In this document: in pieces, positions 2,238 through 39,561 of the stretch
Position numbering within the stretch: position 1 is the first letter of the stretch
How the letters are laid out: each line of letters opens with the position of its first letter
Assembly: GCA_017474235.1 (NCBI GenBank)
Contig: JAFVIB010000011.1
Span: 1 to 64,000 of the forward strand
Length of the DNA stretch: 64,000 bases
Reading direction: 5' to 3'
Origin: Alistipes sp.
GTDB lineage: Bacteria; Bacteroidota; Bacteroidia; Bacteroidales; Rikenellaceae
Program-made: the position numbers and the translations under genes
Notes under the pieces: generated by a model
What the model saw: only the letters and a program-made list of their open reading frames with translations
The model's database searches: none
Told to the model about the DNA's origin: nothing

Positions 2238-2240
2238 AGG

Positions 2241-3980: not shown

Positions 3981-4000
3981 AGCTTTTGTTTTTTGTTAAG

Positions 4001-4008: not shown

Positions 4009-4123
4009 CTAAAAATAGAGCTCTTTTCTATACTGACCTCTATATATGTAGCAGGAATATAGACCGTTATACACCAAAAAGTCTGATTATAAAACAAATA
4101 GCCTGTTATAAAAGTGGAAAAAT

Positions 4124-4155: not shown

Positions 4156-4162
4156 TGTTACT

Positions 4163-5833: not shown

Positions 5834-5840
5834 TAAAAAA

Positions 5841-5869
5841 GAACGGTCTGTCACTGCGACAGACCGTTC
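5841..5869. terminator. Bidirectional terminator between regulator and GH3 gene
   Basis: GAACGGTCTGTC (5841-5852) and GACAGACCGTTC (5858-5869) form a perfect 12-bp stem with a 5-base loop. An A-run precedes it and TTCTGCAATTT follows it. It lies between two convergent genes and can serve both. Confidence 0.85.
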
Positions 5870-5888
5870 TTCTGCAATTTGAAACACA

Positions 5889-8099: not shown

Positions 8100-8117
8100 A
8101 TTATTACCTTTTTGGAA

Positions 8118-9638: not shown

Positions 9639-9664
9639 ATGCACAGTAATTTAATAGAGATAAA

Positions 9665-9695
9665 AGGGGCAGGCAGGCAAATCCCGCCCGCCCCT
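9665..9695 (-). terminator. Terminator or attenuator inside the glucan operon
   Basis: On the minus strand a 13-bp GC-rich stem (9683-9695 with 9665-9677, two G-U pairs) with a 5-base loop is followed by TTTTAT. It sits between the stop of the surface binding protein and the start of GH16. It would end or reduce transcription from the SusC side. Confidence 0.7.
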
Positions 9696-9703
9696 ATTAT
9701 CGG

Positions 9704-12277: not shown

Positions 12278-12315
12278 AATCTGTTCTTTTTTAAGTTATT
12301 CTGTTGTCAGTACTA

Positions 12316-13827: not shown

Positions 13828-13839
13828 TCGGTTTTAAGG

Positions 13840-17985: not shown

Positions 17986-18017
17986 TTTGCATAATATAGA
18001 ATATTTACCTACCTTTG
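17986..18017 (+). promoter_or_regulatory. Promoter of the second SusC operon
   Basis: TTTG (17986-17989), 20 bases, then TACCTTTG (18010-18017) is a perfect Bacteroidetes promoter. The leader to the ATG at 18081 is roughly 55-60 bases. The 240 bases before it are AT-rich with no gene visible. Confidence 0.8.
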
Positions 18018-21000: not shown

Positions 21001-21164
21001 TTTATGCAAATGCTACAAACCTCTTCACTATCAGTGACTACTATGATGGTTATGACCCTGAGACAGCTTACCAGAGTGGTTCACAGGGTGCAACAACCGG
21101 TTCTATCGGTAACAACTACCCACTTTGTAGCACATACACATTCGGTGCAGAGATTAAATTCTAA
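18081..21164 (+). CDS. SusC/RagA family TonB-dependent transporter (second locus)
   Basis: This 1027-residue protein has a signal peptide (1-27, ending TAIAQ), a carboxypeptidase-regulatory-like domain (about 30-110), the TonB-box-like EEVVVVGYGTEKK, a plug domain with IRGIGSFGGSDCAPLILIDG, and a beta-barrel ending in an aromatic residue. A strong promoter drives it, with no regulator beside it. Codons 57-60 contain a run of nine G; a slip there would truncate the protein near its N-terminus and switch the locus off. No enzyme is encoded in the operon, so the substrate is unknown. Confidence 0.95.
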   Translation: MKKLLHNSARLLLVMLACCFSLTAIAQKRSIQGTVVDETGAPMIGASVVVMSGENIVGGGTTTDISGSYTVSVETGQSLDISFIGYKSARVAITAQQTVYKTTLVMDSEAVEEVVVVGYGTEKKVNLTGSVSSISTEEFNSRPITQLSTALQGIAPGVTVTTAGGAPGADTGNIQIRGIGSFGGSDCAPLILIDGVEGDMNSVDASQIDQITVLKDAASAAIYGSRAANGVILITTKRAGKDKFGVTYRGYVGWQEPVVYPDVVGPEDFMRLQSIAEANDGITKLTYSPEYIENYRKNNFLDPDAYPIIDWQKRLMTGNGFTHSHIVTMSAGSERIRNISSFGYLDQNGIIKDASFSRFNLRNNLDVQLHKKFKLSLDIAGTYSNREINPYQNGIFQFMNAKDPVMLAQWSDGSYAPFTGGTTNPLPMIETGVGGNRHYQRLNIKAAVALEYKPVKWLTLEVKAAPQLSATKNHTFKDQVEYHSDPYGSISPITNVEFNSLDESIATTFNGYYHGMLTLAHSFGKHNLKLLLGASYENTEYSSLSAYRQDFAYPQYDVIDAGADNEFKQNGGTRTQLALASFFGRFNYNYDNRYLFEANLRYDGSSRFSKRNRWGLFPSFSAAWRLSEESFMDSTRDVLTEAKIRLSYGTLGNQNIGGNYPTAQMLSISSIAAAGSIYPIVAQTSLANENITWETTYMADAGIDLTLWEKFTLTADYYYKKTDGILMKLDIPSTIGLNAPYQNAGVVTNHGWEVALGYNNRWGDWSFGVQGNISDVINEIVDMKGTSGSSGVIRNQEGSSINSLYLLKSLGIVQTQEQADWINENCPQYGQVTHPGDLVYEDYNLDNKIDDNDKQIVGSLIPRYTYGLTLNVGWKGINLSAQFQGVGKANAYISGYYTQPCVSGGTFQKSHIDNWTPENTDAKYPRLSYQADLNKKSSTFWMANGAYCRLKNLQLSYTFPKKIVKAMKIKGLMVYANATNLFTISDYYDGYDPETAYQSGSQGATTGSIGNNYPLCSTYTFGAEIKF
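18251..18259 (+). repeat. Run of nine G inside the second SusC gene
   Basis: Nine consecutive G bases encode the end of Val57 and Gly58-Gly60 of the transporter. The reading frame is intact in this copy. It is the second such run in the window. Confidence 0.95.
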
Positions 21165-21178
21165 AACAGATTGCAATT

Positions 21179-22969
21179 ATGAAAAAGAATATTATAACTT
21201 TACTTCTGTCGGTAGTTCTTTTGAGCAGTTGCTCTCTTGATCGTGAGCCGCTTGACGGTCCATCTACCGGTACTTTCCCTGCAACCGCAGAAGAGGCTGA
21301 GGCAGGTCTGCTTGCCGCTTATAAGAGCCTTTCAAATGATGTACACCAGTACAACCCAGCAGATCGTTGGTACGATCAGCTCTCTGATATTGGTGCTATG
21401 AGAACTACTATGTCAAGCTGGCCTAACTTCGGCTTGTCAACCGTTACCTCAGAACTCTCTCATGTAGAGAAGACATACACTCGTATCTATAAGGCTATCG
21501 GTCGTGTACACCTTGTACTCGACAAACTCGATAATCTTCGTGGTGTAGTATCTGACGAGCAGTACTATCAGTTCAAGGCTGAGCTCCTCTGTCTTCGTGC
21601 TTATCAGTATGACAAGGGTTGTAAGATTTTTGGTGATATGCCGTGGATTGACCACGCACTCGACCTTGATGACTACGCATACGCTCGTACACCAAAGGCT
21701 GAGGTTATTGCCAATATTCTCAACGATTTGGATGATGAGTTGATAGACAACCTCCCTATTGCTTGGGACCGTGCTACTTGGGGAACTTGCCGTATTGGTC
21801 GTGTAGCTGCATATGCACTCAAGGCTCGTATCTGTCTTGAGTGGGGTTTCTTCGAGGATGCTGCTAAGTATTCAAAGAAGGCTCTTGACCTTGCAGCCGG
21901 TGTTTATGACCTTACTCCACTGGATTGCACCTACTACCCTACACACGCAGATGGTGAGCCAGATCCAACCCCACTTTTCGGTTACGATGCTGAGAGAAAC
22001 TCTCGTGAGTGGATTTGGGCTATTCAGTTCGACCGTCTTGCTGCAAGTAACACACACCAGGGTGTATATAACCATGCTTCTCGTGTACACAATGGCTCTG
22101 CAGGTGCTGGTCCAGCTATGGCATTTATTGACACCTTCCAGTGTACTGACGGTCTTTCTATTGCTGAGTCTCCACTCTACAATTGGCAGGACCCTTGGAA
22201 GAATCGTGACCCACGCCTCGACCTGTTCTGCTTGCGTTCAGGCGCACGCTCTATGGGCGTTCAGTTCTCAACAGACCCTGCTGACAAGACTGTCTTTGAT
22301 TATAATATAGGTAAGGCAGTGCCTAATGGCGATGTTACAGGTAATAAGAGTGAGTATGGTCCTAACGGCACAAAGGGTCCTGGTGGCTACTTATGGCGTA
22401 AGTTCCTCAATATGGAGTACTATGCAAGCGTTACCGGTAACTCTTATGAGGATGAGTTGGATTTGCCTATTATTCGTCTTGCTGAGGTGCTTTTGGTTGA
22501 TGCCGAGGCAAATATCGAGTGGGAGGGTGGTGACCTCTCTCGCGCAAAGGCAAATATCGACCGTATTCGTGCTCGTGTAAATATGCCTCCTGTAAAGGCG
22601 ACCGACCGTGAGGGTCTGCGTTCAGCTCTTCGTTACGAGCGTAAGGTAGAGCTCTGCTGCGAGGGCTTCCGTTGGTTTGACATCCGTCGTTGGAAGGACT
22701 CTACAGGTAAGCCGCTGGTATATAAGGCTATGAATGTTCAGCAGTTTGCACCGGGTTATGGTCGCACAACTTCAAATGCTAAGCCGACTATCGACGAGAA
22801 CTGGATTGTCACTTACGACAAGAACAACACCTTTGACGGTAAGGCTTGCAATGCTCGTGTTCACACAACCTTCAAGTTTGTGGATAAGGATATGCTTTGG
22901 CCATTCCCATATACCGAGATGGTTACCAACCCAATGATTGGTTTGGAGAATAACAACCCTGGTTATTAA
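21179..22969 (+). CDS. SusD/RagB family lipoprotein (second locus)
   Basis: This 596-residue protein has a lipoprotein signal (LLSSCSLD). The C-terminal hallmark LRYERKVELCCEGFRWFDIRR is followed by a WPFPYTE stretch, both characteristic of SusD. It lies 14 bases after SusC and forms the binding lid of that transporter. At 596 residues it belongs to the longer SusD proteins, often linked to complex or decorated substrates; that is only a tendency. Confidence 0.94.
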   Translation: MKKNIITLLLSVVLLSSCSLDREPLDGPSTGTFPATAEEAEAGLLAAYKSLSNDVHQYNPADRWYDQLSDIGAMRTTMSSWPNFGLSTVTSELSHVEKTYTRIYKAIGRVHLVLDKLDNLRGVVSDEQYYQFKAELLCLRAYQYDKGCKIFGDMPWIDHALDLDDYAYARTPKAEVIANILNDLDDELIDNLPIAWDRATWGTCRIGRVAAYALKARICLEWGFFEDAAKYSKKALDLAAGVYDLTPLDCTYYPTHADGEPDPTPLFGYDAERNSREWIWAIQFDRLAASNTHQGVYNHASRVHNGSAGAGPAMAFIDTFQCTDGLSIAESPLYNWQDPWKNRDPRLDLFCLRSGARSMGVQFSTDPADKTVFDYNIGKAVPNGDVTGNKSEYGPNGTKGPGGYLWRKFLNMEYYASVTGNSYEDELDLPIIRLAEVLLVDAEANIEWEGGDLSRAKANIDRIRARVNMPPVKATDREGLRSALRYERKVELCCEGFRWFDIRRWKDSTGKPLVYKAMNVQQFAPGYGRTTSNAKPTIDENWIVTYDKNNTFDGKACNARVHTTFKFVDKDMLWPFPYTEMVTNPMIGLENNNPGY

Positions 22970-22986
22970 TATTAAGAGCGTTCACA

Positions 22987-25542
22987 ATGAAAAAGATTTG
23001 GAAATATTTAAGCTTCTGCCTGCCTGTTATGGCGTTGGCAGTGGGTTGTACCGAGGCTGACGGCATCTCTGAGTTCCAGCCCGATACAAACAAGACCGGC
23101 GATGTAACAATCCTTGCCTCTATTGAGAATGCCGACTCTCGTGCATCTTTGGTTGCTACCGGAGAGGCTCGTTGGCAGCCTGAGGATGGCATTAAGGTTG
23201 TTTGCGATGACGGCTCTACAACTATATTTGAGTTGGACGGCACAGGCGAGACTCGTCGTGCGCTGTTCAAGGGCTCTCTGAGCGGAAACTCTGTTGGAGA
23301 GTATGCAATCTACCCTACAACTGCCGATTTTTCAAACAACAGCCTCTCTATCACACTTCCTTCAGTAGTTGAGGCATCGGCAACCGGCACTTGTGCCTTT
23401 ATGGCAGGTGTTATCGACGAGAAGAATGAGGTTGAGTTCAAGCAGCTTACAGCATACGCTACTGTTCAGCTTAACAACATTCCTGACAAGTCTGTAAAGA
23501 TTGTTTTCTCTTCAGATAAGAACCTTTCAGGCAATGTTACAGTTACACTTCCTGATGCACTGACTGAGGGTGCAGCAGCAAAGGCTGGCAATGAGACTGT
23601 TACAGTAAACTTTGAGGGCAAAGCACCTTCAATGATCAATGTATTCCTCCCACTTGCTGTTGGCGAGTATTCACACATCACAGCTACTGCTTACAACGAG
23701 AAGGGAAATGTACTTAGCGAGGGTGTTGTTGCATCACTTGTAAGTGCATCACGCGGTCTGCTTCTGAGCTACAATGTTGATATGCCGGGTGCATCTAAGC
23801 CAACACCAATCCCTGGTACTGTAAATGTTGCAGGTATCTACTGGGCACTTGGTAACCTCGAGTATGAGGCTGGCGCAACAGCTACTAACGGTTTTGCCGA
23901 GGGTTGGAGAATTGCACCAAGTCAGGAGCACCACTTCTATATGGATAAGCCGGGCGATATTAAGGATCTTAAGGATTACAACAAGGTTGCACACTTCAAC
24001 TTTGGTGGTATTGCAGATTATGCATCTATCAATGCTGCTTCTGCTGTACACATTGCCGGCAGCCCTGCATTTGACTTCAGCGGTAAGATGTACTCTGACG
24101 CTGCTTGCAAGAACGAGACTACCGACTTCAACGCGGCACAGTTTGGTGATATTGCACACTGGGCATCACGCGGTCAGTTCCGTATGCCTACATCAGAGGA
24201 GTTTGCAGCTCTCTATGAGAAGGCTTGCTACACTGCTGCTGTCTATAACTCAGTTAACGGTACATACTTCTTCGACCCTGAGAATGGCGAGGACCCTGTA
24301 TATGTAGAGGGTGTTAAGGAGCTTACCGCTGCTGATTTGACAGTAGGTCTGTTCCTCCCAGCTACAGGTCGCTGCTACAACAACACTGAGTATAACATCT
24401 ATAAGGTTAACGATCAGGGCTTCTACCGTGCATCGACTGTAGATCCTAACTCTCAGGTTGGTAATGGTTACGGTGTTCTCTACCGTACTCTAACAGGTGG
24501 TGCTACGGCTTATGATGAGGCTACTACAGGCAAGCCATTCTTTAACGATGGTCTGCGCGGTAGCGGTAACAACGCCGGTACTTACAACTATGGTGCTCTG
24601 TCACGCTACTCTATCCGTCCTGTATATGTAAGCGGAAACTTCGCACCTGTTACACCTGCTCCGGACCCAACACCGGACCCTGATCCAACTCCGGGTCCTG
24701 ATACAGATCCTGTTCCAACAACAGGTACTGTAACTGTTGCGGGCATTGAGTGGGCAATCGGTAACCTCCAGTTTGAGGAGGGTGGTGCTACAGGCGAGGG
24801 TTTTGCTACAGGCTGGAGCATCAGTGCAGGTCAGCACTTCCACTTCTATATGGGCAAGAGCGGTAATCAGACAGATCTTCCTGAGAACTTCTCAAAGATG
24901 GCACACTTCAACTTCGGAGGTATTACCAATCCATTTATCAACGATGTTACTCTGTCGGCTTCTATTGCAGGCACAAAGGACATCAGCGGTAAGATGTACA
25001 CCGATCAGACCTGCGTTGCCGAGACAACAGATTTTGCTGCCGCTAAGTTTGGAGATATTGCATACTGGGCATCAAAGGGTGCATACCGTATGCCAACTGC
25101 AGAAGAGATGCAGAAACTCTATACAGACGCATGCCGTGTTAAGGCTACCTACACTACTGCCGATGGTGCTGAGATAAGTGGTACATACTTCTACGATCCT
25201 GCATCAGGAGAGACTCCTGGCGCAGTAGAGGTAGATGCTCCTCGCGTAGTTAAAAATGCTGATATGAAGAAGGGTCTGTTCCTTCCTTATACAGGTCGTG
25301 GACAGAGCGGTAATACATACGCAATCTATGCAGTAAATACTCAGGGTGTATATCGTTCATCTACAACTATCAGCGCATCTACCCTTGAGCAGACCTACGG
25401 TGCTATCTATCGTCCTCATGTTCTTAGCGAGGCTGATGGCAAGCATCCTACAGACTATATCTATACATATTGGGAGGCTAAGAATCAGACTGCTTACGGT
25501 GTTATGGGTCGCTACGCTATCCGCCCTGTAAAGGTTAAGTAA
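22987..25542 (+). CDS. Fimbrillin-like lipoprotein with two FISUMP-like modules
   Basis: This 851-residue protein has a lipoprotein signal (MALAVGC) and an N-terminal fimbrillin-like beta-sandwich (about 30-260). Two homologous C-terminal modules follow (about 270-555 and 580-850), joined by a PDPTPDPDPTP linker. Each module runs through VAGIxWAxGNL, HFNFGGI, SGKMY, GDIAxWAS, YRMPT or FRMPT, GLFLPxTGR and finally RYxIRPV. This order resembles the FISUMP domain of secreted Bacteroidetes proteins. It follows SusD by 17 bases and is probably the surface ligand-binding protein of the locus. A strong hairpin closes the unit 20 bases later. Function beyond surface location is unknown. Confidence 0.7.
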   Translation: MKKIWKYLSFCLPVMALAVGCTEADGISEFQPDTNKTGDVTILASIENADSRASLVATGEARWQPEDGIKVVCDDGSTTIFELDGTGETRRALFKGSLSGNSVGEYAIYPTTADFSNNSLSITLPSVVEASATGTCAFMAGVIDEKNEVEFKQLTAYATVQLNNIPDKSVKIVFSSDKNLSGNVTVTLPDALTEGAAAKAGNETVTVNFEGKAPSMINVFLPLAVGEYSHITATAYNEKGNVLSEGVVASLVSASRGLLLSYNVDMPGASKPTPIPGTVNVAGIYWALGNLEYEAGATATNGFAEGWRIAPSQEHHFYMDKPGDIKDLKDYNKVAHFNFGGIADYASINAASAVHIAGSPAFDFSGKMYSDAACKNETTDFNAAQFGDIAHWASRGQFRMPTSEEFAALYEKACYTAAVYNSVNGTYFFDPENGEDPVYVEGVKELTAADLTVGLFLPATGRCYNNTEYNIYKVNDQGFYRASTVDPNSQVGNGYGVLYRTLTGGATAYDEATTGKPFFNDGLRGSGNNAGTYNYGALSRYSIRPVYVSGNFAPVTPAPDPTPDPDPTPGPDTDPVPTTGTVTVAGIEWAIGNLQFEEGGATGEGFATGWSISAGQHFHFYMGKSGNQTDLPENFSKMAHFNFGGITNPFINDVTLSASIAGTKDISGKMYTDQTCVAETTDFAAAKFGDIAYWASKGAYRMPTAEEMQKLYTDACRVKATYTTADGAEISGTYFYDPASGETPGAVEVDAPRVVKNADMKKGLFLPYTGRGQSGNTYAIYAVNTQGVYRSSTTISASTLEQTYGAIYRPHVLSEADGKHPTDYIYTYWEAKNQTAYGVMGRYAIRPVKVK

Positions 25543-25562
25543 TATCTAAACTAACTCCATAA

Positions 25563-25595
25563 ACACTCCACGCCCGATTTTCGAGCGTGGAGTGT
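25563..25595 (+). terminator. Terminator or attenuator after the second Sus operon
   Basis: ACACTCCACGC (25563-25573) and GCGTGGAGTGT (25585-25595) form a perfect 11-bp stem with an 11-base loop. The tail ATAAACTTTTG is only partly T-rich, so some read-through into the next unit is possible. Confidence 0.65.
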
Positions 25596-25641
25596 ATAAA
25601 CTTTTGATAACATAACAAACCTAATTAAAAACTTTAACAAA

Positions 25642-25779
25642 ATGAGAACTTACACAAAACCTACTATCCTCGCTGAGGATGTAAAAGTAGAGGCTGGTTT
25701 TCAGACCTCAACTGTAGAATGGGAACTCGGCGCACCGGGTGGCGAGATTGATGTTAATGATTATGAAATCGAACTCTAA
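25642..25779 (+). CDS. 45-residue acidic peptide of unknown function
   Basis: The frame runs from ATG 25642 to TAA 25777-25779. It starts MRTYTKPTILAEDVKVEAG, continues with FQTSTVEWELGAPGG and ends EIDVNDYEIEL. It has no signal peptide or membrane segment. The N-terminal part is charged and helix-like, followed by a Gly-Ala-Pro-Gly-Gly turn and a strongly acidic tail. Short proteins beginning MK/R-x-Y-x-KP are common ahead of secreted-protein genes in Bacteroidales, but I know no proven function. It lies 13 bases before a fimbrillin-like lipoprotein and opens the metallo-beta-lactamase unit. The GG followed by a short tail recalls leader peptides of exported peptides, but no processing transporter is nearby. 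Confidence 0.6.
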   Translation: MRTYTKPTILAEDVKVEAGFQTSTVEWELGAPGGEIDVNDYEIEL

Positions 25780-25792
25780 AAAATGTAGCACT

Positions 25793-27514
25793 ATGAGAAA
25801 GTTTATTACCACAATGCTTATCGCAGCGGCTGCATTTACCGCTTGCGTTCAGAACGACGAGGTTGTCGTTCCAAATAACAATGACAAAATCACCTTTACC
25901 GCTACCGTAACTGCTCCTGAGACCCGTACAGTGCTTGTTGAGGAGGGTGGCAAGTTCCACGCTGAGTGGCAGAATGACGATGTAATCGAGGTTTTTGAGG
26001 TTACAGATGTAGTACAGAGTGGTACTAAAAAATACCAATCAAATTTAACAACAGTTGTAGTCGATGGAACTAATAGCACTGCAAATGTAGAACTGAATGT
26101 TTTTGATACTGCTACATCATACTCTTATGTTCTTACCACAACTAATGCCTCTATGAATGGAGGTGCAACATATCTTGGTTTGACACTCCCTTCTGCACAG
26201 GCTCCTGCTGCAATGAACACATTTGATGGAGCATCTGATATTATTGTATCAAAGCGTGTTCAGCGTACATCACAGCCTGCTGCTGGCGAAACTATTTCAT
26301 TCGACAATATTCGTATCTCTGCTATTGTAAAGGTTACTATCAAGAATCTTGCTCTCGCTGCAGGTGATAAGGTTGAGAGTGTAACATTCTCTTGCAATAA
26401 GGAGATTGCAGGTAAATTTACAAAGATTTACTTAGATGATATTGAGAACGGTACACCATTTGTTAACAGCTCTGGAGATGGTACATTTGGCAATGTAACC
26501 GTTACCCTTCCTGAGGCTCAGTCAGGTGATTTCAGCTACTATATGAATGTATGGCCCGCAACCCTTGAGGCGGGATCGGACTACTCTGTAACCGTTATCA
26601 CAACAAATAGCAAATTCATAAAGAAAGGTACTATCCCTGCAGACAAGCCGCTCACATTTGCAATGGGCGATATCACTACTCTTACAGTTAATATGGCAAC
26701 CGCAGAGGAGGATATTGTTGCAAGTAGCGACTATATAACCATTGCCGGTGTTAAGTGGGCAACAGGTAACTTGTGGTATGACGAGGATGGTACTACTGAA
26801 GATGGTTTTGTAAATGGTTGGTCCATCGCCCCAAATCAGCACTATTGTATTGTAAACTCTACAGATGGTCCTACTACACGCGATATATTCAACTTTGGTG
26901 GTATCACAGATCCAATGAGTCACTCTACATGTGTTAATATCACCACAATTCCTGATGAAGGATTCAATATCAGTGGTAAGATGTTTACAGATGCAACTTG
27001 TGCTACAACTACTACAAACTATGCAGAAGCTGTTTATGGAGATATTGCATACTATGCATCAAAGGGTAAGTATCGTATGCCAACAGCACAAGAGTTTAAG
27101 GATATGATAGCAGCTACCAGCTCAACTCTTGCTACATTTAACGATATACCGGGTGTATATTTCTGGATTCCTGCCGCTGACGAAGAGCGCACTGTTGCAA
27201 ACAATTCTACTTCTATAACCTTAACAAAAGATCAGTTAGCTACAGGTCTATTCTTCCCTGCAATTGGTCGTGGATTTAATAAGGAAGACTGGAGCATTAA
27301 TGGCGTCGGATCAACATACATGTATCGCGCAGCAGATGTAGAATCTGAAGATAATTGGGGTGATAGTCCAGGGGAAACATGTTATGGAGTTATTGCAAAT
27401 CTCAAGCTTGCTGGATCTACTGACACTGCTGTTAATAAGAAGGATGTACACTATTGGAACAAGGCTATTGGAGCGAAAGCTCGTCTTCCAATTCGTCCTG
27501 TTGTAAATGAGTAA
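25793..27514 (+). CDS. Fimbrillin-like lipoprotein with one FISUMP-like module
   Basis: I start at ATG 25793 (573 residues, MRKFITTMLIAAAAFTAC) because this gives a clean lipoprotein signal; a longer frame from 25739 would overlap the small peptide gene. After the lipid cysteine comes a fimbrillin-like domain (about 30-305; ITFTATVTAPETRTV is typical). One C-terminal module (about 318-573) with VKWATGNL, FNFGGI, SGKMF, GDIAYYAS, YRMPT, GLFFPAIGRG and LPIRPV is homologous to the two in the lipoprotein at 22987. Nothing catalytic is visible. It may form a surface scaffold or bind the same ligand as its relative. The first metallo-beta-lactamase gene starts 16 bases later. Confidence 0.7.
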   Translation: MRKFITTMLIAAAAFTACVQNDEVVVPNNNDKITFTATVTAPETRTVLVEEGGKFHAEWQNDDVIEVFEVTDVVQSGTKKYQSNLTTVVVDGTNSTANVELNVFDTATSYSYVLTTTNASMNGGATYLGLTLPSAQAPAAMNTFDGASDIIVSKRVQRTSQPAAGETISFDNIRISAIVKVTIKNLALAAGDKVESVTFSCNKEIAGKFTKIYLDDIENGTPFVNSSGDGTFGNVTVTLPEAQSGDFSYYMNVWPATLEAGSDYSVTVITTNSKFIKKGTIPADKPLTFAMGDITTLTVNMATAEEDIVASSDYITIAGVKWATGNLWYDEDGTTEDGFVNGWSIAPNQHYCIVNSTDGPTTRDIFNFGGITDPMSHSTCVNITTIPDEGFNISGKMFTDATCATTTTNYAEAVYGDIAYYASKGKYRMPTAQEFKDMIAATSSTLATFNDIPGVYFWIPAADEERTVANNSTSITLTKDQLATGLFFPAIGRGFNKEDWSINGVGSTYMYRAADVESEDNWGDSPGETCYGVIANLKLAGSTDTAVNKKDVHYWNKAIGAKARLPIRPVVNE

Positions 27515-27530
27515 TAACTAATAGTTTCTG

Positions 27531-28736
27531 ATGAGACGAAGTTTTATAATTTTTCTATCGATGTGTCTGGCGGTGATTGTTTTCACCGCCGGATGCAACG
27601 GTAATACGGCTCGCGTAGGCAGTCCACTCCCTGCGTGGAGCGAGGGTCATCTTGACATTCACACGATAAGCACAGGTCGTGGAGAGTGTCTATTGGTTAT
27701 TTTGCCCGACGGCACAACGATAGTAGTTGATGCGGGCGAGTTCAGCCGAGAGAGCAAGAGTTATGGCAATGTTGCACAGCGTCCTAATGCTCAGACACGC
27801 CCGACAAAGGCTTTTGGCGACTATATTCGCCACTTCCTTCCAAAGAGTGATAGTGTTGACTACTTCAACCTCTCGCACTTTCATATGGACCATATGGGTA
27901 ATATAGAGCCTGAATATACAAAGTCTGCCGAGGGAGATTACATCCTCTCAGGCGTAATGGCTCTATATCATCAAGTACCATTTCGTGAGGTTATAGACCG
28001 TGCATACGGGGCTTATGACTCTTTGGCGGTACAGGCTATGAGCGTAAAGTCGCTTCCTGAGTACAAGAAGTTTATCTCTCATCACACCGCTCACGGAACA
28101 CTCAAGGCTACTCGCTTTGAGCTTGGCGCAGTAAATCAGTTTGCTATGCGCTACAATGCCGAGGCTTATCCAAACCTCACTATCGAGAATATCTGCTCAA
28201 ACGGCTATGTTTGGGACAACGGCAAGGCGGTAGATGTCTATGAGAACAATCGCGAAAACATTCGCGAGAATGCGGCAAGTTGCGGTTTTGTAATCCGCTA
28301 CGGAGCTTTTGACTTCTTTACTGCCGGCGATATTGGCGACTACTACGACCTTGAGTATCGTGTAGCACTTGCTGCGGGCGATGTTGATGCTGCAAAGGCA
28401 AACCATCACCTCTCTCCGCACTCTAACTGTCAAAAGGCTATGGGAGTTCTCAAGCCCGAGGTGCTTGTAGCGACAAGTTTCTACCACCGTGAGATACAGC
28501 CCGATCAGAGCAAGTTCGGCTGGATAACCGACGGCGGTTGTCGTCTCTACTGCACAAGCGTAAGCGAGAAGTTGCTCGAGGCTCAGCCGGAGGTGTACTC
28601 TCTATGTAGTGCTACGAGCGGTCACAATGTTATCCGCGTAGCCCCGAATGGCGATTCATACACTGTCTATACCCTTGACGATAGCGACAGCGAGTATCGC
28701 GTAACTAAGATTGACGGACCTTTTACAAGCAAATAA
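27531..28736 (+). CDS. ComEC-like metallo-beta-lactamase lipoprotein 1
   Basis: This 401-residue protein has a lipoprotein signal (VFTAGC, Cys22) and then a single metallo-beta-lactamase domain. Visible motifs are HTISTGRGECLLVILPDGT (44-62), VVDAGE (65-70), the metal-binding HFHMDH (116-121), TAGDIGD (264-270) and NHHLSPHS (291-298). Their order is that of the extracellular nuclease-like domain of the DNA-uptake protein ComEC (COG2333 type), without its membrane channel. The lipid anchor puts it outside the cytoplasm. Hydrolysis of a phosphodiester such as extracellular nucleic acid is possible; the substrate is unproven. The next paralogue starts 3 bases after the stop codon. Confidence 0.75.
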   Translation: MRRSFIIFLSMCLAVIVFTAGCNGNTARVGSPLPAWSEGHLDIHTISTGRGECLLVILPDGTTIVVDAGEFSRESKSYGNVAQRPNAQTRPTKAFGDYIRHFLPKSDSVDYFNLSHFHMDHMGNIEPEYTKSAEGDYILSGVMALYHQVPFREVIDRAYGAYDSLAVQAMSVKSLPEYKKFISHHTAHGTLKATRFELGAVNQFAMRYNAEAYPNLTIENICSNGYVWDNGKAVDVYENNRENIRENAASCGFVIRYGAFDFFTAGDIGDYYDLEYRVALAAGDVDAAKANHHLSPHSNCQKAMGVLKPEVLVATSFYHREIQPDQSKFGWITDGGCRLYCTSVSEKLLEAQPEVYSLCSATSGHNVIRVAPNGDSYTVYTLDDSDSEYRVTKIDGPFTSK

Positions 28737-28739
28737 TCT

Positions 28740-30059
28740 ATGAGGCGACTGATATATTGGCTATTACCTCTTACAATCCTACTTTCCGTATCGTGCGGAG
28801 AGCCGGATGTCAAGATGCCGTGGGAGGATGACTTAGGCAAGGGCGAGCAACAGCAGCCCGACAACCCGACGCCCGACAACCCAACACCAGACAACCCGAC
28901 ACCCGACAACCCTACACCTCCGACAGAGGGCGTTTACAAGGTTGGCGAGGTGTTACCTCTATGGAGCGAGGGCGAGTTGGATATTCACACCATAAGCACA
29001 GGTCGTGGCGAGTGTCTGTTGATAATTATGCCCGACGGTACTACTATGGTGGTTGATGCGGGCGAGTTCAGTCGCGAGACATCCGAGTACAAGAATGTTG
29101 CTCAGCGCCCGAATGCACAAACACGCCCTACACAGGTATATGCCGACTATATCAAGCATTTCTTGCCTTCAGGACGCACAATGATAGACTATTTCCACCT
29201 CTCACACTTCCACATGGACCACATGGGAAACTTGGAGAAGGAGTACTCAAAGTTTGCCGAGGGCAACTATACCCTCGCAGGTATTACGGCTCTATATCAT
29301 CTTCTCCCTTTCCGCGAGGTTATAGACCGCGCATACGGAAAGTATGATGCACTGAAGGTTAATAGCATGAGTGAGGCTGCTCTGAAGAATTATCGCGTCT
29401 TCTTGGATTATCAGGTGGGCAAAGGCAATCTGCGTGCATCGCAATTCCAGTTAGGTGCTGTAAATCAGTTTGCTATGCGCTACAATGCCAAAGACTACCC
29501 CAACTTCAAAATCGAAAATGTCTGCGCAAACTGCAATATTTGGGAGAACAACAAGGCTGTGGATATATATGCAGGCAAAAGCAAGGCTGAGAATGCTGCA
29601 TCTTGCGGTTTTGTTATCCGCTATGGAGATTTCGACTTCCACTCTGCCGGCGACATTGGCGACTACGAGGACCTTGAGTATCGCGTAGCCAAAGTTGTAG
29701 GTCAAGTCGAGGCTGCAAAGGCTCATCACCACCTCTCACCACACTCCAACTGTAAGAAGGCGATGGATGTGCTTAAACCGCAGACACTCGTGGCAACAAG
29801 TTTCTATGTGCGCGAGATTCAGCCCGACAAGAGCAAGTTTGACTACATAACAGCAGGCGGTTGCGATCTCTTCTGCACATCTGTCGGCGAGCCTCTGCTA
29901 CTGCAATATCCTACAGATTACGCAAAGTGCAATGCTACAAGCGGGCATATCGTAATTCGCGTAGCTCCAAATGGCAGCGAATATATGGTTTACACTCTTG
30001 ACGATAGCGACAATCTATATAAAATAAAACATATTGACGGACCTTATAAATGTAAGTAG
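28740..30059 (+). CDS. ComEC-like metallo-beta-lactamase lipoprotein 2
   Basis: This 439-residue paralogue of the preceding protein has a lipoprotein signal (LLSVSC, Cys19) followed by acidic residues (MPWEDD) that resemble a surface-export signal. A PDNPT linker repeated four times (residues 40-59) comes next. The metallo-beta-lactamase domain keeps every motif of copy 1: HTISTGRGECLL, VVDAGEFSRE, HFHMDHMG, SAGDIGDY and HHLSPHSNC. Copies 1 and 2 are closer to each other than to copies 3 and 4, which suggests stepwise duplication. The linker probably lifts the domain off the membrane. Only one base separates its stop codon from the next start. Confidence 0.75.
   Translation: MRRLIYWLLPLTILLSVSCGEPDVKMPWEDDLGKGEQQQPDNPTPDNPTPDNPTPDNPTPPTEGVYKVGEVLPLWSEGELDIHTISTGRGECLLIIMPDGTTMVVDAGEFSRETSEYKNVAQRPNAQTRPTQVYADYIKHFLPSGRTMIDYFHLSHFHMDHMGNLEKEYSKFAEGNYTLAGITALYHLLPFREVIDRAYGKYDALKVNSMSEAALKNYRVFLDYQVGKGNLRASQFQLGAVNQFAMRYNAKDYPNFKIENVCANCNIWENNKAVDIYAGKSKAENAASCGFVIRYGDFDFHSAGDIGDYEDLEYRVAKVVGQVEAAKAHHHLSPHSNCKKAMDVLKPQTLVATSFYVREIQPDKSKFDYITAGGCDLFCTSVGEPLLLQYPTDYAKCNATSGHIVIRVAPNGSEYMVYTLDDSDNLYKIKHIDGPYKCK
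28857..28916 (+). repeat. Four 15-base tandem repeats encoding PDNPT
   Basis: Four in-frame copies of a 15-base unit (CCCGACAACCCGACG and close variants) encode a Pro-Asp-Asn-Pro-Thr linker. Third-position differences between the copies show it is not a recent perfect expansion. Confidence 0.9.
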
Positions 30060-30060
30060 T

Positions 30061-31317
30061 ATGAAAAAGTTTTGGTTTTTACCTCTTATCGCCCTATTTG
30101 CAATATCTTGTGGCGGAGACAACGAAGAGATGCCTTGGGATGATGATATTAACCCCGACAAGAACGAACAGACAACCGTAGAGATTGGTAAGCCTCTGCC
30201 GCTTTGGAGCGAGGGTCATCTCGATATTCACTTTATCAACTCCGGTCGTGGCGAGTGTTGCTACTACATTCTGCCCGATGGCACAACACTGCTTGTCGAT
30301 GCCGGCGAGCTGCCACTGAATTATGGCGACGGACCTTGCCCACAGCGTCCAAATTCAGTAATTCGTCCATATGAGACCTATGCAAAGTATATCAAGCACT
30401 TTATGCCTCAGGGCAATAGCGCAATCGACTACTGCGCACCTTCTCACTTCCATATCGACCATATAGGTAGTAAGGATGCTGCAACAGAGACCTCTCCTGT
30501 TGGTTATCGCAAGTCGGGTCTGCTCGCGCTGTTTGACCTTGTGGCTTACAAACATATCCTCGACAATGCCTATCCGGGATACAAGGAGGATAGTGTAACG
30601 CCTGCACTTGATGGCGAGCTTGCAGAGGACTGGGGCAAGTTCGTAACTTGGGGAGTTAAAGAGGGTAAGTTTACCGGAGCTCGCTTTACCCCGGGAGAGG
30701 AGCAGATTGTGCTGCTGAATAAGAGAGATAGTTACAAAAACTTCAAGGTCTTCAACATCTGCGCAAATGGCTTTGTATGGTCTAAAAATGGTCTTGCCGG
30801 CTCAAAATCGGATAAGGGAAACCCTGCTTGCTGCGGCTTCCATATCACATACGGCAAGTTTGACTATATCGCTTGTGGCGACCTTACAAGTAGCTCTCAG
30901 AACCGTTTTGCAACCTATTTCAAGGATTGTGTCGGCAGCGGTAAGCTTGAGGCTTTCAAGAGTCATCACCACCTCGGAGCAAACAGTTGGGGTTCAAAGA
31001 TGCAGGAGTACGAGTTCAATCCTCGCGTAATTTTGAACTGTAGTATGTATAAAGGTCAGCCAAATGTAGATATGCTCAACAATATTCTCAATAATGTTGC
31101 CCCATTCCCATTCTGGGTTAAGGATTTCTTTACAACAAGTGCCCACTCTGAGGCTATAGCTGAGAATAGCGCACTCTACAACAAAGTTACAGGCTACAAC
31201 GGACATATTGTACTGCGCGTAGCTCCGGGCGGTAGCGAGTTCTATGTCTATATGCTCGACGATACTAACTTTGACTACAATGTAAAGTCTGTCCACGGAC
31301 CTTATACATCTAAATAA
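30061..31317 (+). CDS. ComEC-like metallo-beta-lactamase lipoprotein 3
   Basis: I start at ATG 30061 (418 residues, MKKFWFLPLIALFAISC); a frame from 30034 would overlap copy 2 and spoil the signal. After the lipid cysteine comes GGDNEEMPWDDD, strongly acidic like known surface-export signals. The metallo-beta-lactamase domain shows HFINSGRGECCYYILPDGT, LLVDAGE, HFHIDHIG, ACGDLTSSS and HHHLGANSWG. These differ from copies 1 and 2 in the same way as copy 4, so this is the second subfamily. Metal ligands are kept, so the protein is probably an active hydrolase. Seven bases separate it from copy 4. Confidence 0.75.
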   Translation: MKKFWFLPLIALFAISCGGDNEEMPWDDDINPDKNEQTTVEIGKPLPLWSEGHLDIHFINSGRGECCYYILPDGTTLLVDAGELPLNYGDGPCPQRPNSVIRPYETYAKYIKHFMPQGNSAIDYCAPSHFHIDHIGSKDAATETSPVGYRKSGLLALFDLVAYKHILDNAYPGYKEDSVTPALDGELAEDWGKFVTWGVKEGKFTGARFTPGEEQIVLLNKRDSYKNFKVFNICANGFVWSKNGLAGSKSDKGNPACCGFHITYGKFDYIACGDLTSSSQNRFATYFKDCVGSGKLEAFKSHHHLGANSWGSKMQEYEFNPRVILNCSMYKGQPNVDMLNNILNNVAPFPFWVKDFFTTSAHSEAIAENSALYNKVTGYNGHIVLRVAPGGSEFYVYMLDDTNFDYNVKSVHGPYTSK

Positions 31318-31324
31318 TCCAAAA

Positions 31325-33343
31325 ATGAAAAGATTTATTTACTTCCTCTCTGCTCTGCTGCTGACAGTAGGTTGTGCAGGATATGAAGAGGTCGATATTG
31401 TTACTGATGCGCCCGAAGCCTTCACTGCCGATATTGAAGAGTCTTGTGTGCGCCTATATATAGATGATAATAAGCTCTATTGGCACAATAGCGACGAGAT
31501 TTCAATCTTTGCAGGCACTACAAAGAACCTCAAATACAAATTTGAGGGCGAGACAGGCAGTCGCACCGGAAAGTTCAGCTGTGTAACCTCAAATACATCG
31601 GGTGGCACTGCTCTTGACTGCAACTATGCCATCTATCCATACTCGGCACTTACAACAATGCTTGCAAGCGGCAATATCGAGTACTCGCTCTCATCTTCAC
31701 AGAAGTATGCAGAGAACTCTTTTGCCCCTAATGCTAATATTATGGTGGCTGCAACTGAGAACAGTGACAATACCCACTTCCAATTCAAGAATGTTGTCGG
31801 CTATCTGAAGTTGCAATTGTATGGCAACAACACCTCTGTCAAGACAATCACCTTGACGGGCAATAAGAGCGAGAAACTTACAGGTAATGCCACTATCACA
31901 GCCTCTTTTGGCAAAGAGCCGACTTTGACTCTTGATGATAATGCAACAAACAAGGTTACGCTTAACTGCGAGTCGGCTGTAAAGCTGAGTAGCAACAGCG
32001 CGAAACCTACAGAGTTTTGGTTTGCTCTGCCTCCGATAACATTCTCAGAGGGCTTTACCATTACCGTTACAGACTCTGAGGGTAACCAATTTAAGAAATC
32101 AACCTCTAAGAAGGTTGTAATTGCTCGTAATACCATACTGCCGATGCAGAGTATTGAGGTAGTGACAAAGGCTACAACGGGCTCTACCCTCCCTGCTTGG
32201 TCAGAGGGATATCTCGACATCCACTTTATCAATGCAGGTCGTGGCGAGTGCTGCTTCTACATACTTCCTGACGGTACAACTATGCTTGTTGATGCAGGCG
32301 AAGTAAAGACCAATAACATTAAAGAAGGTAATGAGAATTACCCTGATGACCTGAATGTAGAGCAGAAACCAAATGCAAGTGTACGCCCATATATGGTCTA
32401 TGCAAACTATATCAAGCACTTTATGCCTAACGGTCAGACAGCTATCAACTGGTGCGCACCGTCACACTTCCATATCGACCATATCGGAGATCCTAATACT
32501 GCAACCGAAAGACACACCGAGGGAGGCTACCGCAAGACTGGTCTTATGGCTCTGTTTGATGAGGTGCCATTCTATCGCGTTATCGACCGTGCATATCCTG
32601 ACTATGTAGAGGATGATACAACAGCTCCATTAGAGGGCGGTTTGGCTCAGGATTGGGCAAAGTTTGTCAAGTATCATATTGCAGAGGGTAATATTGCAGC
32701 CGGCTACCGCTTTACCCCGGGTGAGGAGCAGATAACTCTCCGATACAACAAAGCAGCCTATAGCAACTTCCGTATCTTCAACATCTGCGCAAACGGTTTT
32801 GTGTGGAATAAGAAAAATGGTGCAGAATATTTGGCAGGTAGTAGAGCCAATGAAGGCAATCCTGCCTCATGCGGTTTCCATATCAGCTACGGAGACTTTG
32901 ATTATGTTGCTTGCGGTGACCTTACCTCTACTCCGCAGAACTTGGCAGCATATTATGTCCGTGATTTTATTGGCGGAGACAAACTCGATGCCTTTAAGAC
33001 TCACCACCATTTGAGTGGTAATAGTTGGGGTACAAGAACTAAGGAAGTTCACCAGCCACAAGTGATTTTAAGCCATAGCTTCTACAATAAGCAGCCTGAC
33101 ACGGGTCTATTAGATATGCTGTTCGGCTATACATGGCAGAAGAATTTCTTTGTAACAAACCTCCACTCTATGTGGAAGAGCAATAATGGTACACTGCTGA
33201 ACGATAGTGAGTTTACTGGCTCTGAGGGTCACATTGTTCTTCGCGTTGCCCCGGGCGGTAAGACATTCTATGTCTATATGCTTGACGACACAAACTTTGA
33301 GTATAAGATTAAGTCTATTCACGGACCTTACACTTCAAAATAG
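31325..33343 (+). CDS. Fimbrillin-like domain fused to ComEC-like metallo-beta-lactamase (copy 4)
   Basis: This 672-residue lipoprotein (LLTVGC) joins two parts. Residues about 20-280 are a fimbrillin-like beta-sandwich, with HFQFKNVVGYLKLQLYG and an ARNTILPMQSIEV end. Residues about 283-672 are a metallo-beta-lactamase domain of the second subfamily: HFINAGRGECCFYILPDGT, LVDAGE, HFHIDHIG, ACGDLTSTP and HHHLSGNSWG. The fusion ties the hydrolase directly to the kind of domain that copy 1's upstream neighbour encodes separately. That is good evidence that fimbrillin-like protein and hydrolase act together on the cell surface. It is the last gene before a strong terminator. Confidence 0.78.
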   Translation: MKRFIYFLSALLLTVGCAGYEEVDIVTDAPEAFTADIEESCVRLYIDDNKLYWHNSDEISIFAGTTKNLKYKFEGETGSRTGKFSCVTSNTSGGTALDCNYAIYPYSALTTMLASGNIEYSLSSSQKYAENSFAPNANIMVAATENSDNTHFQFKNVVGYLKLQLYGNNTSVKTITLTGNKSEKLTGNATITASFGKEPTLTLDDNATNKVTLNCESAVKLSSNSAKPTEFWFALPPITFSEGFTITVTDSEGNQFKKSTSKKVVIARNTILPMQSIEVVTKATTGSTLPAWSEGYLDIHFINAGRGECCFYILPDGTTMLVDAGEVKTNNIKEGNENYPDDLNVEQKPNASVRPYMVYANYIKHFMPNGQTAINWCAPSHFHIDHIGDPNTATERHTEGGYRKTGLMALFDEVPFYRVIDRAYPDYVEDDTTAPLEGGLAQDWAKFVKYHIAEGNIAAGYRFTPGEEQITLRYNKAAYSNFRIFNICANGFVWNKKNGAEYLAGSRANEGNPASCGFHISYGDFDYVACGDLTSTPQNLAAYYVRDFIGGDKLDAFKTHHHLSGNSWGTRTKEVHQPQVILSHSFYNKQPDTGLLDMLFGYTWQKNFFVTNLHSMWKSNNGTLLNDSEFTGSEGHIVLRVAPGGKTFYVYMLDDTNFEYKIKSIHGPYTSK

Positions 33344-33362
33344 GCTATTGGTTGATATACTA

Positions 33363-33394
33363 TTAAAGGCAGTTAGAATACTAACTGCCTTTAA
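33363..33394 (+). terminator. Terminator of the metallo-beta-lactamase operon
   Basis: TTAAAGGCAGTTAG (33363-33376) and CTAACTGCCTTTAA (33381-33394) form a perfect 14-bp stem with a 4-base loop, followed by TTTTG. It ends the unit that begins with the 45-residue peptide. Confidence 0.85.
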
Positions 33395-33480
33395 TTTTGC
33401 GCCCTCTGCGCTCGGTTTGGCGTCGGTTATCAAAAGTGCGTAATTAGCCGATGGAAATGCGCCGCTATCACGATAAAATC

Positions 33481-34792: not shown

Positions 34793-37700
34793 TTACTTAA
34801 CCATCTCAACAATGCGTGAACGCTTTACCGGAGTCTGCTTGTTGTCGTTTGACTTCTTCACCTTTGTAGGATAGCTAGATAATTTAGCTACGCCAAGTTT
34901 CATAGGACTATACGCAGAGGCATTGCTGCTCTTCGCAAAGCTTTGCTGCTTGAGTGTAGCACCCTTAATACTTGATGTTACCTTAACATTAGCCTTATCA
35001 GCGCTTGATGTAGAAGCAGTCTGCTCTTGATCAAGTACGAAGTACTCTGTAAAGATGGTACCTCCACCAAGAGATACACTAGGACCCAACTCTGGACATG
35101 CAAGAATTACATGGAATACAAACTCTCCAGCCTCTGCATCGAAGTAAGGCTGAGCGTCACCACCAATTTGTGCAGCAAGTTCCTCCCAAGTAATCTCACG
35201 ACCATTCTCCTTATAGTATGTGCGCACATCACAAGCAAAGATATTCCCCTGACCACCCATTGGTGTAGAATCTACGCCGGTATCATTGTAACCGATAATC
35301 TCACACTTGTTAGTAGTCTTATCCCAAGTGAAGTTGAGATCTGTACCAGCACCAGTAAAATCAACGATGCGATACTTATTCGTATTCTCAAGGTTCATCA
35401 ACTTACGACCAGTGAATGGAACATAGTAGTCCTCACTATCTGTGAAGAGTACTGAACAGTAGCTACCTGTATCAACCTCTACCCACTGTGGCTCTGAAAC
35501 TGCACCATCGAGAACGAATACCTCGTTAACGAAGTAAGTCTTATTGCCATCTGCATCTGCGAATGTCAGCATACTTTCAACATCTGGCAAGAAGTATGAT
35601 ACACGGAATACGAATGCATTCTCCTCAGGATCGAAGTAAGGCTGTACAGATCCGCCATAATCAGCCTCCAACGACTCCCAAGTATCATCATAACCCAAGT
35701 AATTCCAAGAAGTCTTCTCATCAGCGAAGAAAATGTTACCAGGAGCGCCAACACCCAACGCCGAAGCGGCAATACCAGTATCATTCATACCCTGAACCTC
35801 ACAGAGGTTAGTCTCCTTATTCCAGCTAAATACGAAATGCTTATCTGTAGCGCCTAAGAAGTCAACTACACGGTAGAGGTTTGTATCCTCTGCATGCTGG
35901 AGTGTCAGCTCGGTAACAGGGTCCTTCATAACATTGCAATACCAAGAACCGGTCGCTACATCAGTCCAAACATAAGTCTCCAAGCTCTCCTTGCAAGTAC
36001 CCGGCATGAGCAGATTGCCCTCTGCATCGCAAATCTTTACAGATAATACTACGCCATTTGAAGCAACTGTACCGCTAAGAATCTGGAGATATACCTGCTG
36101 ACCGTAGATAGACACACCTGTTGGCTGAAGCTCGTAACCTGCAGGAATGGTTACCTCTCCATCTGCATTACCTGCGAAGTAGATATCATAACCATTTGCA
36201 TAAGCAGATGGAATACGATAAGCTGTACCGTACTGCTTCTCAAATGCAGCTGCACCACGACCTGTGCAAGCACCCTTCTCAAGAGTTGCAGTCCACTCGT
36301 TATCCTGGAATACAGACTTGAATGTATCTGTAAAGAGAGCTGTGTACTCAAAGTCTGCTCTCAAATCCATTGCAGGAACATAAGGGAAGTCAGGAGCCTC
36401 TGTTGAGATAACCTCATTGTAAACGCCGTAAGGGATAATATACTGACCCTGATATGTGTAGAACTCTGCAACGAGTGCAAGCTCACCTGTCTCAGGATTG
36501 AACTTAGATGCCTTAGCGTCGATAGCCATATATACATCGTAGCCATTCTGAACAAGACCTGTTGCCTGCTCCTCAAAGCCTGCAGGAACGGTTACTGTAC
36601 CGTCTGCCTTTGCACCGAAGTAGATTGGATAATCAACTGCATAGCACTCTGCAAGGCGATACATAAGACCATACTGAGCAACAAAGTTGCGGTCTGCATC
36701 GTCAGTGCTTTTATTTGGACGACCCTCCTCAAGGATAGGATACCAAGCAGCAGCCTGTGACTCAGAGTAGAAGAGTGCATTCTCGTCAAGCTCCATCTCA
36801 GTGAATGTGAAGTCGCCATCCTCATAACCCTCAGGAAGAATAAGTGAATACTTACCGAGCTTTGGAGCTACTGTAAGGGCAAATGCACCGCTAGTATTTG
36901 CATAGTAAGTATTAGAACCTACATAAGTACCACCTGGGCAACCAAGAAGAGCCTGAACAGGGAATGTAAGAGTACCACCATTGAATGAACCATACATATC
37001 CTCAGTTGGAGTAGCTCCGTTATCCAAACGGTAACCAACCATAGAGTAGATAGACGCCTCACCGCCATTGATTGAGATACCAAGTGGCTGAAGGTCGATA
37101 TATGCTCTGTTGTAAGGTTTTGCATTGATAACGAGGTAAGTAGGGTCAGACTCAAGGGTTGTATCCTCAGGGTCAGCCCAAGGACCTACACGGTAAGGGT
37201 TTAACAAACGGTAGATACCTGACAGACCTGCGTCAGAACCTGTACCATCGAGAGCAGCCTGGAATGCAGCCTCGTCGATAGAGTCAGCACGAACCTGTAC
37301 CTTTACATTATATGTAGGGTGTGTCTGACCAGCCCACTCGCCTTCAAAACTGAAACCCCACCATGAGGTAATAACATCCTCTGTATAAGCACACTCGCCT
37401 ACATCAACCCACTTTACGCGGGTAACAGTAAGGCTGATAGAGTTTGCATTTGCGCTCTCATACTGCTTTACATACTGTGGATCGTTGATTGCGAAAGAGA
37501 GGGTGTAAGGAACACCAATCTCAGACTCGTTAAGAGAGACTGTAAACTCTGCAACATCGCTACCCTCCTCGAAAACAATCTCAGATACGGTAAACTTCTC
37601 CTGAGTATTTGCAGTCACAACAACCGGAACAGTTACTGCACCCTCAGTATTGTTACGATATGCAGTATATTTAAACTCAGTTGCATCAGCAGGATCGAGC

Positions 37701-37876
37701 TCTACAGCTCCTGTTGGACCCTGAGTCTCAAGAGTCGCTGCATCCGGGAAATAGACATCGTAGCAACTCTCAATCTCTGGCGCACCTGGCTCATAGGTAT
37801 CAGTCTCTGTACAAGCGACCATACCTACTGTTGCAAGTGCAAGCAGAGCATAGAAAAATTTATTTAATGTTTTCAT
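34793..37876 (-). CDS. Modular surface lipoprotein of the third Sus locus, 1027 residues
   Basis: I start at ATG 37876; a longer frame begins at TTG 37894 and lacks a better signal. The lipoprotein signal ends TVGMVAC. Residues about 30-140 resemble a Calx-beta-type domain. Several related beta-rich modules follow. The last two (about 130 residues each) share LYRVVDF or KYRIVDF, FxWxKxTNxCExxGxNDTG, GNIFxxD, and PYFDxExxxFVFxV, and so arose by duplication. The final 80 residues are Lys/Ser-rich and basic (STSSADKANVKV through KRSRIVEMVK), unlike the acidic body. It probably serves as the ligand-binding partner of the SusCD pair. No catalytic motif is visible and I do not recognise the modules. 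Confidence 0.65.
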   Translation of the reverse strand: MKTLNKFFYALLALATVGMVACTETDTYEPGAPEIESCYDVYFPDAATLETQGPTGAVELDPADATEFKYTAYRNNTEGAVTVPVVVTANTQEKFTVSEIVFEEGSDVAEFTVSLNESEIGVPYTLSFAINDPQYVKQYESANANSISLTVTRVKWVDVGECAYTEDVITSWWGFSFEGEWAGQTHPTYNVKVQVRADSIDEAAFQAALDGTGSDAGLSGIYRLLNPYRVGPWADPEDTTLESDPTYLVINAKPYNRAYIDLQPLGISINGGEASIYSMVGYRLDNGATPTEDMYGSFNGGTLTFPVQALLGCPGGTYVGSNTYYANTSGAFALTVAPKLGKYSLILPEGYEDGDFTFTEMELDENALFYSESQAAAWYPILEEGRPNKSTDDADRNFVAQYGLMYRLAECYAVDYPIYFGAKADGTVTVPAGFEEQATGLVQNGYDVYMAIDAKASKFNPETGELALVAEFYTYQGQYIIPYGVYNEVISTEAPDFPYVPAMDLRADFEYTALFTDTFKSVFQDNEWTATLEKGACTGRGAAAFEKQYGTAYRIPSAYANGYDIYFAGNADGEVTIPAGYELQPTGVSIYGQQVYLQILSGTVASNGVVLSVKICDAEGNLLMPGTCKESLETYVWTDVATGSWYCNVMKDPVTELTLQHAEDTNLYRVVDFLGATDKHFVFSWNKETNLCEVQGMNDTGIAASALGVGAPGNIFFADEKTSWNYLGYDDTWESLEADYGGSVQPYFDPEENAFVFRVSYFLPDVESMLTFADADGNKTYFVNEVFVLDGAVSEPQWVEVDTGSYCSVLFTDSEDYYVPFTGRKLMNLENTNKYRIVDFTGAGTDLNFTWDKTTNKCEIIGYNDTGVDSTPMGGQGNIFACDVRTYYKENGREITWEELAAQIGGDAQPYFDAEAGEFVFHVILACPELGPSVSLGGGTIFTEYFVLDQEQTASTSSADKANVKVTSSIKGATLKQQSFAKSSNASAYSPMKLGVAKLSSYPTKVKKSNDNKQTPVKRSRIVEMVK

Positions 37877-37918
37877 ATATATCGTGTTTTTCAATTTGAC
37901 ATATTATCCGTTGTTGGA

Positions 37919-39538: not shown

Positions 39539-39561
39539 ATCTTTTCTCCTTTCTTTAATAA

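Follow-up and report, generated by a model that had tools for sequence, protein, structure and literature searches.

Passages of PMC7618045 describe the Bacteroides thetaiotaomicron utilisomes for levan and dextran as comprising SusC, SusD, an Ig-like-domain binding protein, and a surface enzyme. In Flavobacterium johnsoniae, SusCD-like pairs lie beside genes for predicted phosphodiesterases or monoesterases in the phosphate utilization system (PUS, PusCD), as set out in parts of Lidbury et al. 2020 (PMC8115612). Here we analyze a 64,000-nucleotide stretch of Alistipes sp. DNA (the window; C38 among the 50 contigs of a 1.97 Mb genome) that encodes, in one forward-strand unit, a SusC-SusD pair, two fimbrillin-like lipoproteins, and four tandem proteins of the metallo-beta-lactamase (MBL) fold. 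This MBL operon is probably a variant of SusCD/PUS-type loci. Given its utilisome-like parts and PUS as the nearest functional precedent, we favor, with a probability of about 0.6, a SusCD-type uptake operon for phosphodiester-containing nutrients in which MBL phosphodiesterases take the place of glycoside hydrolases, in preference to a DNA-uptake or pilus machine.

Comparison with described uptake loci

To judge from those passages, the parts of the window operon correspond in kind to those of the levan and dextran utilisomes, whose enzyme is a glycoside hydrolase whereas several MBLs are found here. Like PUS as described in parts of PMC8115612, the operon has a SusCD-like pair beside predicted phosphodiesterases or monoesterases rather than carbohydrate-active enzymes (the MBL activity being predicted from fold and ligands) and probable exported lipoproteins, and ECF sigma and FecR genes occur both in PUS and among the neighbors of related MBLs. 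In the same source, however, the PUS phosphodiesterases are calcineurin-like and PhoA-type, and its main text contains neither "MBL" nor "lactamase". PUS is also defined there by low-phosphate induction. The window operon has tandem MBLs, fimbrillin-like partners, and no regulator-sized open reading frame (ORF) in the 1 kb before SusC.

Layout of the operon

The unit (18081-33343, forward strand) and its flanking signals are as follows.

17986-18017, forward: promoter match TTTG-N20-TACCTTTG, 63 bases upstream of SusC
18081-21164, forward: SusC/RagA TonB-dependent outer-membrane transporter (TIGR04056, E 1.1e-277; Plug and beta-barrel domains)
21179-22969, forward: SusD/RagB ligand-binding lipoprotein (PF07980, E 9e-44; PF14322, 4.5e-13)
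22987-25542, forward: fimbrillin/FISUMP lipoprotein, a Fim homolog (fimbrillin-like N-terminus, two FISUMP-type repeats)
25563-25595, forward: strong intergenic RNA hairpin (z -7.39), lying between the transporter and hydrolase halves
25642-25779, forward: conserved ORF of 45 amino acids, no evident signal peptide
25793-27514, forward: Fim lipoprotein (fimbrillin fold and C-terminal FISUMP-type domain)
27531-28736, forward: MBL1, subfamily A, lipobox-like Cys
28740-30059, forward: MBL2, subfamily A, lipoprotein with acidic linker MPWEDDLG after the Cys
30061-31317, forward: MBL3, subfamily B, lipoprotein with linker MPWDDDI
31325-33343, forward: MBL4, subfamily B, fimbrillin-like N-terminus fused to an MBL domain
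33362-33395, forward: intrinsic terminator-type hairpin closing the unit (15 pairs, then a short U run; z -4.15)

An earlier note on this DNA had flagged the second half of the unit, in which the tandem MBL genes span 27531-33343, and had found no transporter. That statement is not supported: adjacent SusC (18081-21164) and SusD (21179-22969) genes head the unit, which at 18081-22969 has the defining arrangement of a SusCD-type utilization locus. Successive gaps from SusC to MBL4 are 14, 17, 99, 13, 16, 3, 1, and 7 bases, the last four falling within the 1-16 bases that the note had given; the strong terminator that it had placed at the end is also there, as the 15-pair hairpin listed above. 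Domain-library scans of the unit's eight long genes recognized no family of glycoside hydrolases, lyases, or carbohydrate esterases.

The MBL proteins and their fimbrillin-like partners

All four window MBLs have complete metal sites, fall into two subfamilies, and carry HxHxDH at motif II, just as had been read from the letters alone. Across the family the metal ligands, whose loss the note had named as a refuting result, are kept in an alignment of 158 rows (identical rows removed; MBL3 was entered with two starts, giving 157 proteins). Motif II is HxHxDH in 156 of the 158 rows, and the motif III Asn (N285 equivalent) is present in 157/157 rows having a residue there. The two exceptions (L104:9905-11185 and L148:9399-10706) have a ComEC-like HxDxDH. 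The family has no curated name, and family libraries recognize these genes only through sub-threshold ComEC/MBL resemblance. Two solved phosphodiesterases, pneumococcal Pce and the ComEC nuclease domain, are resembled about equally, with a Pce-like motif II and a ComEC-like motif III. On the strength of the predicted fold and the ligands, the window MBLs are most likely two-metal phosphodiester cutters.

The MBLs are probably exported. MBL2 and MBL3 read as lipoproteins; the lipobox-like Cys of MBL1 is present here and missing in nine of the eleven relatives displayed. Residues 1-280 of MBL4 align to the Fim profile (hhalign, probability 96.3). Fim itself is predicted to have the two-domain fimbrillin fold of FimA/Mfa-type proteins over residues ~29-305 (AlphaFold model and PDB fold matches); the FISUMP-type assignment of its C-terminus stems from one member of 18. 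The 22987-25542 protein is homologous to Fim (25793) over residues 6-546, and its residues 546-851 match the corresponding part of its relatives' proteins; there is also a weak Lcl_C match. The genetic linkage of fimbrillin-like partners to the MBLs held up. The free-standing surface machine on a fimbrillin scaffold was not supported; the partners carry a FISUMP-type domain and sit where SusCD loci have their surface binding proteins, and from their position and fold both lipoproteins are putative binding proteins. Pfam recognized no pilus partners in the unit, a result that proves nothing.

Fimbrillin-like domains are fused not only to MBLs but also, in the window's own genome, to a glycerophosphodiester phosphodiesterase (GDPD) (L236:2104-3732, G000:C35), a parallel to MBL4. 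Downstream of one orthologous operon, a gene for 777 amino acids (L054:14351-16684) has an MBL4-type fimbrillin-like N-terminus (42%) with repeats in place of the MBL, as judged by eye.

Conservation in other genomes

Relatives were taken as the best 80 of 523 genome matches. The closest named ones are Alistipes and Rikenellaceae genomes assembled from metagenomes, chiefly of goat, sheep, deer, and cattle guts, and the source is most likely a ruminant-gut Alistipes-like bacterium. The order SusC-SusD-FISUMP-Fim-MBL1-MBL2-MBL3 is present in the nine closest named loci (L051-L059), and the order from SusC to MBL3 in 6 of 37 genus genomes, including the window's own. Of 180 genus genomes surveyed, 50 gave a match of some kind (in many cases weak or incomplete), and the MBL1-MBL2-MBL3 array occurred in 10; the latter count rests on MBL matches, with SusC/SusD seen in L036-L040, L051-L059, and the window. 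Some genomes are present twice, as G and L copies, and the cluster tally merges these.

The pattern SusC-SusD-FISUMP-MBL(-MBL) repeats across Bacteroidales, and MBLs preceded by SusC-SusD occur in Bacteroides, Sphingobacterium, and Wenyingzhuangia. In three further loci (two of Altererythrobacter, one of Rhizobiales) the MBLs come after a receptor-sized gene with sigma/anti-sigma-like genes (by eye); the L114 receptor was confirmed by Pfam. Among loci with at least 6 kb upstream, 48 of 66 have SusC/TonB or SusD on the same strand within 9 kb (tblastn). A lack of linkage in other genomes, which the earlier note had named as refuting, was not observed. The window's genome has a second MBL cluster (C15, L009:10339-14071 in G000), with three tandem MBL3-type proteins after a glutamate-dehydrogenase-like gene; relatives have one or two MBL copies at the same place. 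A calcineurin-like phosphoesterase/PQQ-repeat gene lies upstream.

Neighboring genes in relatives

A GDPD lies within 6 kb of an MBL in 6 of 30 MBL clusters versus 0 of 40 control SusD loci (p 0.0045). The controls, 9-20 kb each and taken from same-order genomes, were chosen by hand from a match list before their DNA was seen, and no MBL of this family was found in them either. The GDPD-bearing loci are L062-L064, L071, L108, L148, L149/L158, L154, and the Bacteroides loci L102, L103, and L105. In L062-L064, which are Alistipes assemblies, the GDPD directly closes the MBL array, and L063 and L064 encode a SusC with 73% identity to the window protein. Pfam or NCBIfam confirmed the GDPDs of L063, L071, L103, and L108. 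For L062, ORF-based tallies gave no MBL owing to overlapping reverse frames, and tblastn shows both MBL and GDPD; L117, outside the 6/30 count, has a GDPD-like stretch 3 kb from its MBL (tblastn).

Other neighbors point in a similar direction. After the last MBL of L094 come a glycerol-1-phosphate dehydrogenase-like and a GlpT/PgtP-like gene (both below curated cut-offs) and a HAD-IIA phosphatase; L091, L097, and L098 likewise carry the first two. Type I phosphodiesterases occur in L152 and L153, the latter also with a purple acid phosphatase. Genes found repeatedly beside MBLs encode FAD_oxidored proteins, sodium symporters, PfkB kinases, and Zn-alcohol dehydrogenases, with a mannitol dehydrogenase once, as would be predicted for the release and catabolism of a polyol. 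In a Pfam tally of 99 MBL neighbors we counted FAD_oxidored 7, GDPD 6, SSF 4, and Phosphodiest 3, and the only glycoside hydrolase among the 25 of 94 families listed was Glyco_hydro_2_C (2). Among 88 control neighbors we counted GH3 5 and GH16 4, with FAD_oxidored, GDPD, SSF, and Phosphodiest each below 2. The first tally covers 99 of 162 references, dereplicated, omitting mainly transporter-less loci, housekeeping genes, and very long ORFs; the second takes alternate entries (88 of 175) without dereplication.

The earlier note had proposed nucleic acid or another phosphodiester as the target. A phosphodiesterase remains likely, and nucleic acid may be its substrate, but the neighbors in relatives favor glycerophosphodiester, polyol, and phosphoester catabolism.

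Proposed function and alternatives

Based on these data, we propose that the fimbrillin/FISUMP lipoproteins would act on the surface as binding proteins, as their fold and position suggest, and that MBL2, MBL3, and MBL4, held by lipidated linkers or a fimbrillin-like stalk, would cut phosphodiester bonds of the captured substrate at a two-metal site. SusC/SusD would take in the product. MBL1, whose lipidation Cys is missing in most relatives compared, may complete the breakdown in the periplasm together with GDPDs from other parts of the genome. The substrate would most likely be a glycerophosphodiester-type molecule or polymer (a phospholipid head group or teichoic-acid-like) or a phosphodiester-decorated glycan. 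A teichoic-acid-type substrate is attractive, as speculation, since Pce acts on teichoic acid and one locus group has a glycerol-1-phosphate-dehydrogenase-like gene.

Several points weigh against this proposal. No member of the MBL family has a known activity. Of the 66 loci scored, 18 were without a transporter, though two of these are probably undercounted (L084 has SusC and L119 a receptor-sized gene), and the C15 cluster and its counterparts in relatives have no SusC/SusD. No GDPD, GlpT, or phosphatase gene lies beside the window operon or within 6 kb in the largest cluster (30 loci of the window's type), the phosphodiester context being that of relatives, and 24 of the 30 MBL clusters have no GDPD within that distance. 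MBL loci were the source of the GDPD model, with an independent motif adding none; eight GDPD matches in the window's genome raise the chance level for co-occurrence; and the 99 neighbors were hand-picked from the 162 candidates before scanning.

Among the alternatives, an unlikely one that survives best is that the MBLs trim like Pce/CbpE (1wra, 2bib), the Streptococcus pneumoniae phosphorylcholine esterase that acts on teichoic acid, either stripping phosphorylcholine or phosphoethanolamine from a glycan destined for import or remodeling the cell's own surface. Pce entries 12qj, 1wra, and 2bib are the top PDB sequence matches for both a single MBL protein and the profile; Pce shares the MBL fold, HxHxDH, and the bridging Asp and His; and the MBLs are probable surface lipoproteins. 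However, identity to Pce is ~16%, no choline-binding module was found by Pfam in the four window MBLs, and motif III has Asn where a passage of PMC8579336 implies His for Pce. Unlike Pce, the window MBLs are lipoprotein-anchored, tandem, and located behind SusCD, and few glycoside hydrolases are among the neighbor families listed.

Next in rank, and improbable in our view, are surface nucleases: ComEC-like MBLs would cut DNA or RNA at the surface and SusCD would import oligonucleotides. In the comparison of the predicted fold, the top VIA Z belongs to the ComEC/Rec2 domain (COG2333; 9ic4), which exceeds Pce by 2.5 and shares the MBL fold and the motif III Asn; passages of PMC8579336 and PMC12455585 describe this domain as a Mn-dependent nuclease with motif II HxDxDH. 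Against that motif stands the HxHxDH of nearly all rows in our alignment. In addition, a His kept by distant members in an HTQP context, which may match ComEC H725, is not present in the window MBLs (by eye), and the 25 of 94 neighbor families listed include neither nucleotidases nor hydrolases or transporters of nucleosides. Pfam finds no competence channel domain (PF03772) in the window MBL proteins; the genome's own ComEC is a separate gene for 482 amino acids (L243:2543-3991, G000:C14) with that domain and no recognized MBL domain.

We see little chance that these are MBL-fold hydrolases of another bond (lactone, sulfate ester, or amide) and that the locus is a polysaccharide utilization locus of the ordinary type. 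In favor of this view, MBL superfamily enzymes catalyze diverse reactions, and sulfatase-family and sialate O-acetylesterase-type genes adjoin some MBL copies. Finally, the transporter-free, fimbrillin-scaffolded surface machine of the earlier note is very improbable, since despite the Fim fold, the fimbrillin-MBL fusions, and the transporter-less C15 cluster, SusC/SusD belong to the unit and are conserved along with the MBLs, and single MBLs follow SusC-SusD with no recognized fimbrillin partner in L065, L104, and L122.

Other features of the window

The TTTG-N20-TACCTTTG pattern, which we take to be a Bacteroidales-type promoter consensus, has 12 matches in the window against 1.23 expected from shuffles. 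Because the hairpin at 25563-25595 is strong and sits in the 99-base gap, the unit from SusC to MBL4 could be one transcript or two. It has no clear U run and may have a role in the ratio of the transporter and hydrolase halves. Of the 9 relatives folded, 7 have a hairpin of comparable strength, with changed stem sequence, in that gap, whereas L054 and L038 have none. The adjacent 45-amino-acid ORF has counterparts of 42-48 amino acids at the same place in five relatives and matches 4 of 31 genomes searched, each time only at the MBL operon; Y, P, V, E, GF, S, PG, Y, and a final EL are invariant in six copies.

Two further SusCD loci flank the operon. The first (375-17082, mostly minus strand: CotH, GH30, GH3, GH16, SusD, and SusC, with a DUF6377 gene at 4163-5833 on the plus strand) looks like an ordinary beta-glucan-type utilization locus. 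The other (34793-42825, minus strand) encodes SusC, SusD, and a 1033-amino-acid protein without a Pfam match; it faces the MBL operon, from which two short genes, rimM- and rpsP-like by eye, separate it.

Implications

The usual interpretation of SusCD loci is that they harvest sugars and that their uncharacterized lipoproteins are adhesins. Should the MBLs prove to be phosphodiesterases, one class of importers in the outer membrane of gut and rumen Bacteroidales would be assigned to phosphorus-linked substrates. We suggest, tentatively and as a doubtful extension, that these loci form a distinct SusCD class, rare per genome and spread over several phyla, that would harvest phosphodiester-linked polymers, for example glycerol- or polyol-phosphate teichoic acids of Gram-positive neighbors, through tandem surface MBL phosphodiesterases to which fimbrillin-like binding domains are fused. 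Such a "phosphodiester utilisome" would be one whose paralog arrays might provide several bond specificities per operon. Phosphodiesterase activity would also give a role to uncurated hydrolase genes, and a fimbrillin-like function outside pili would become testable.

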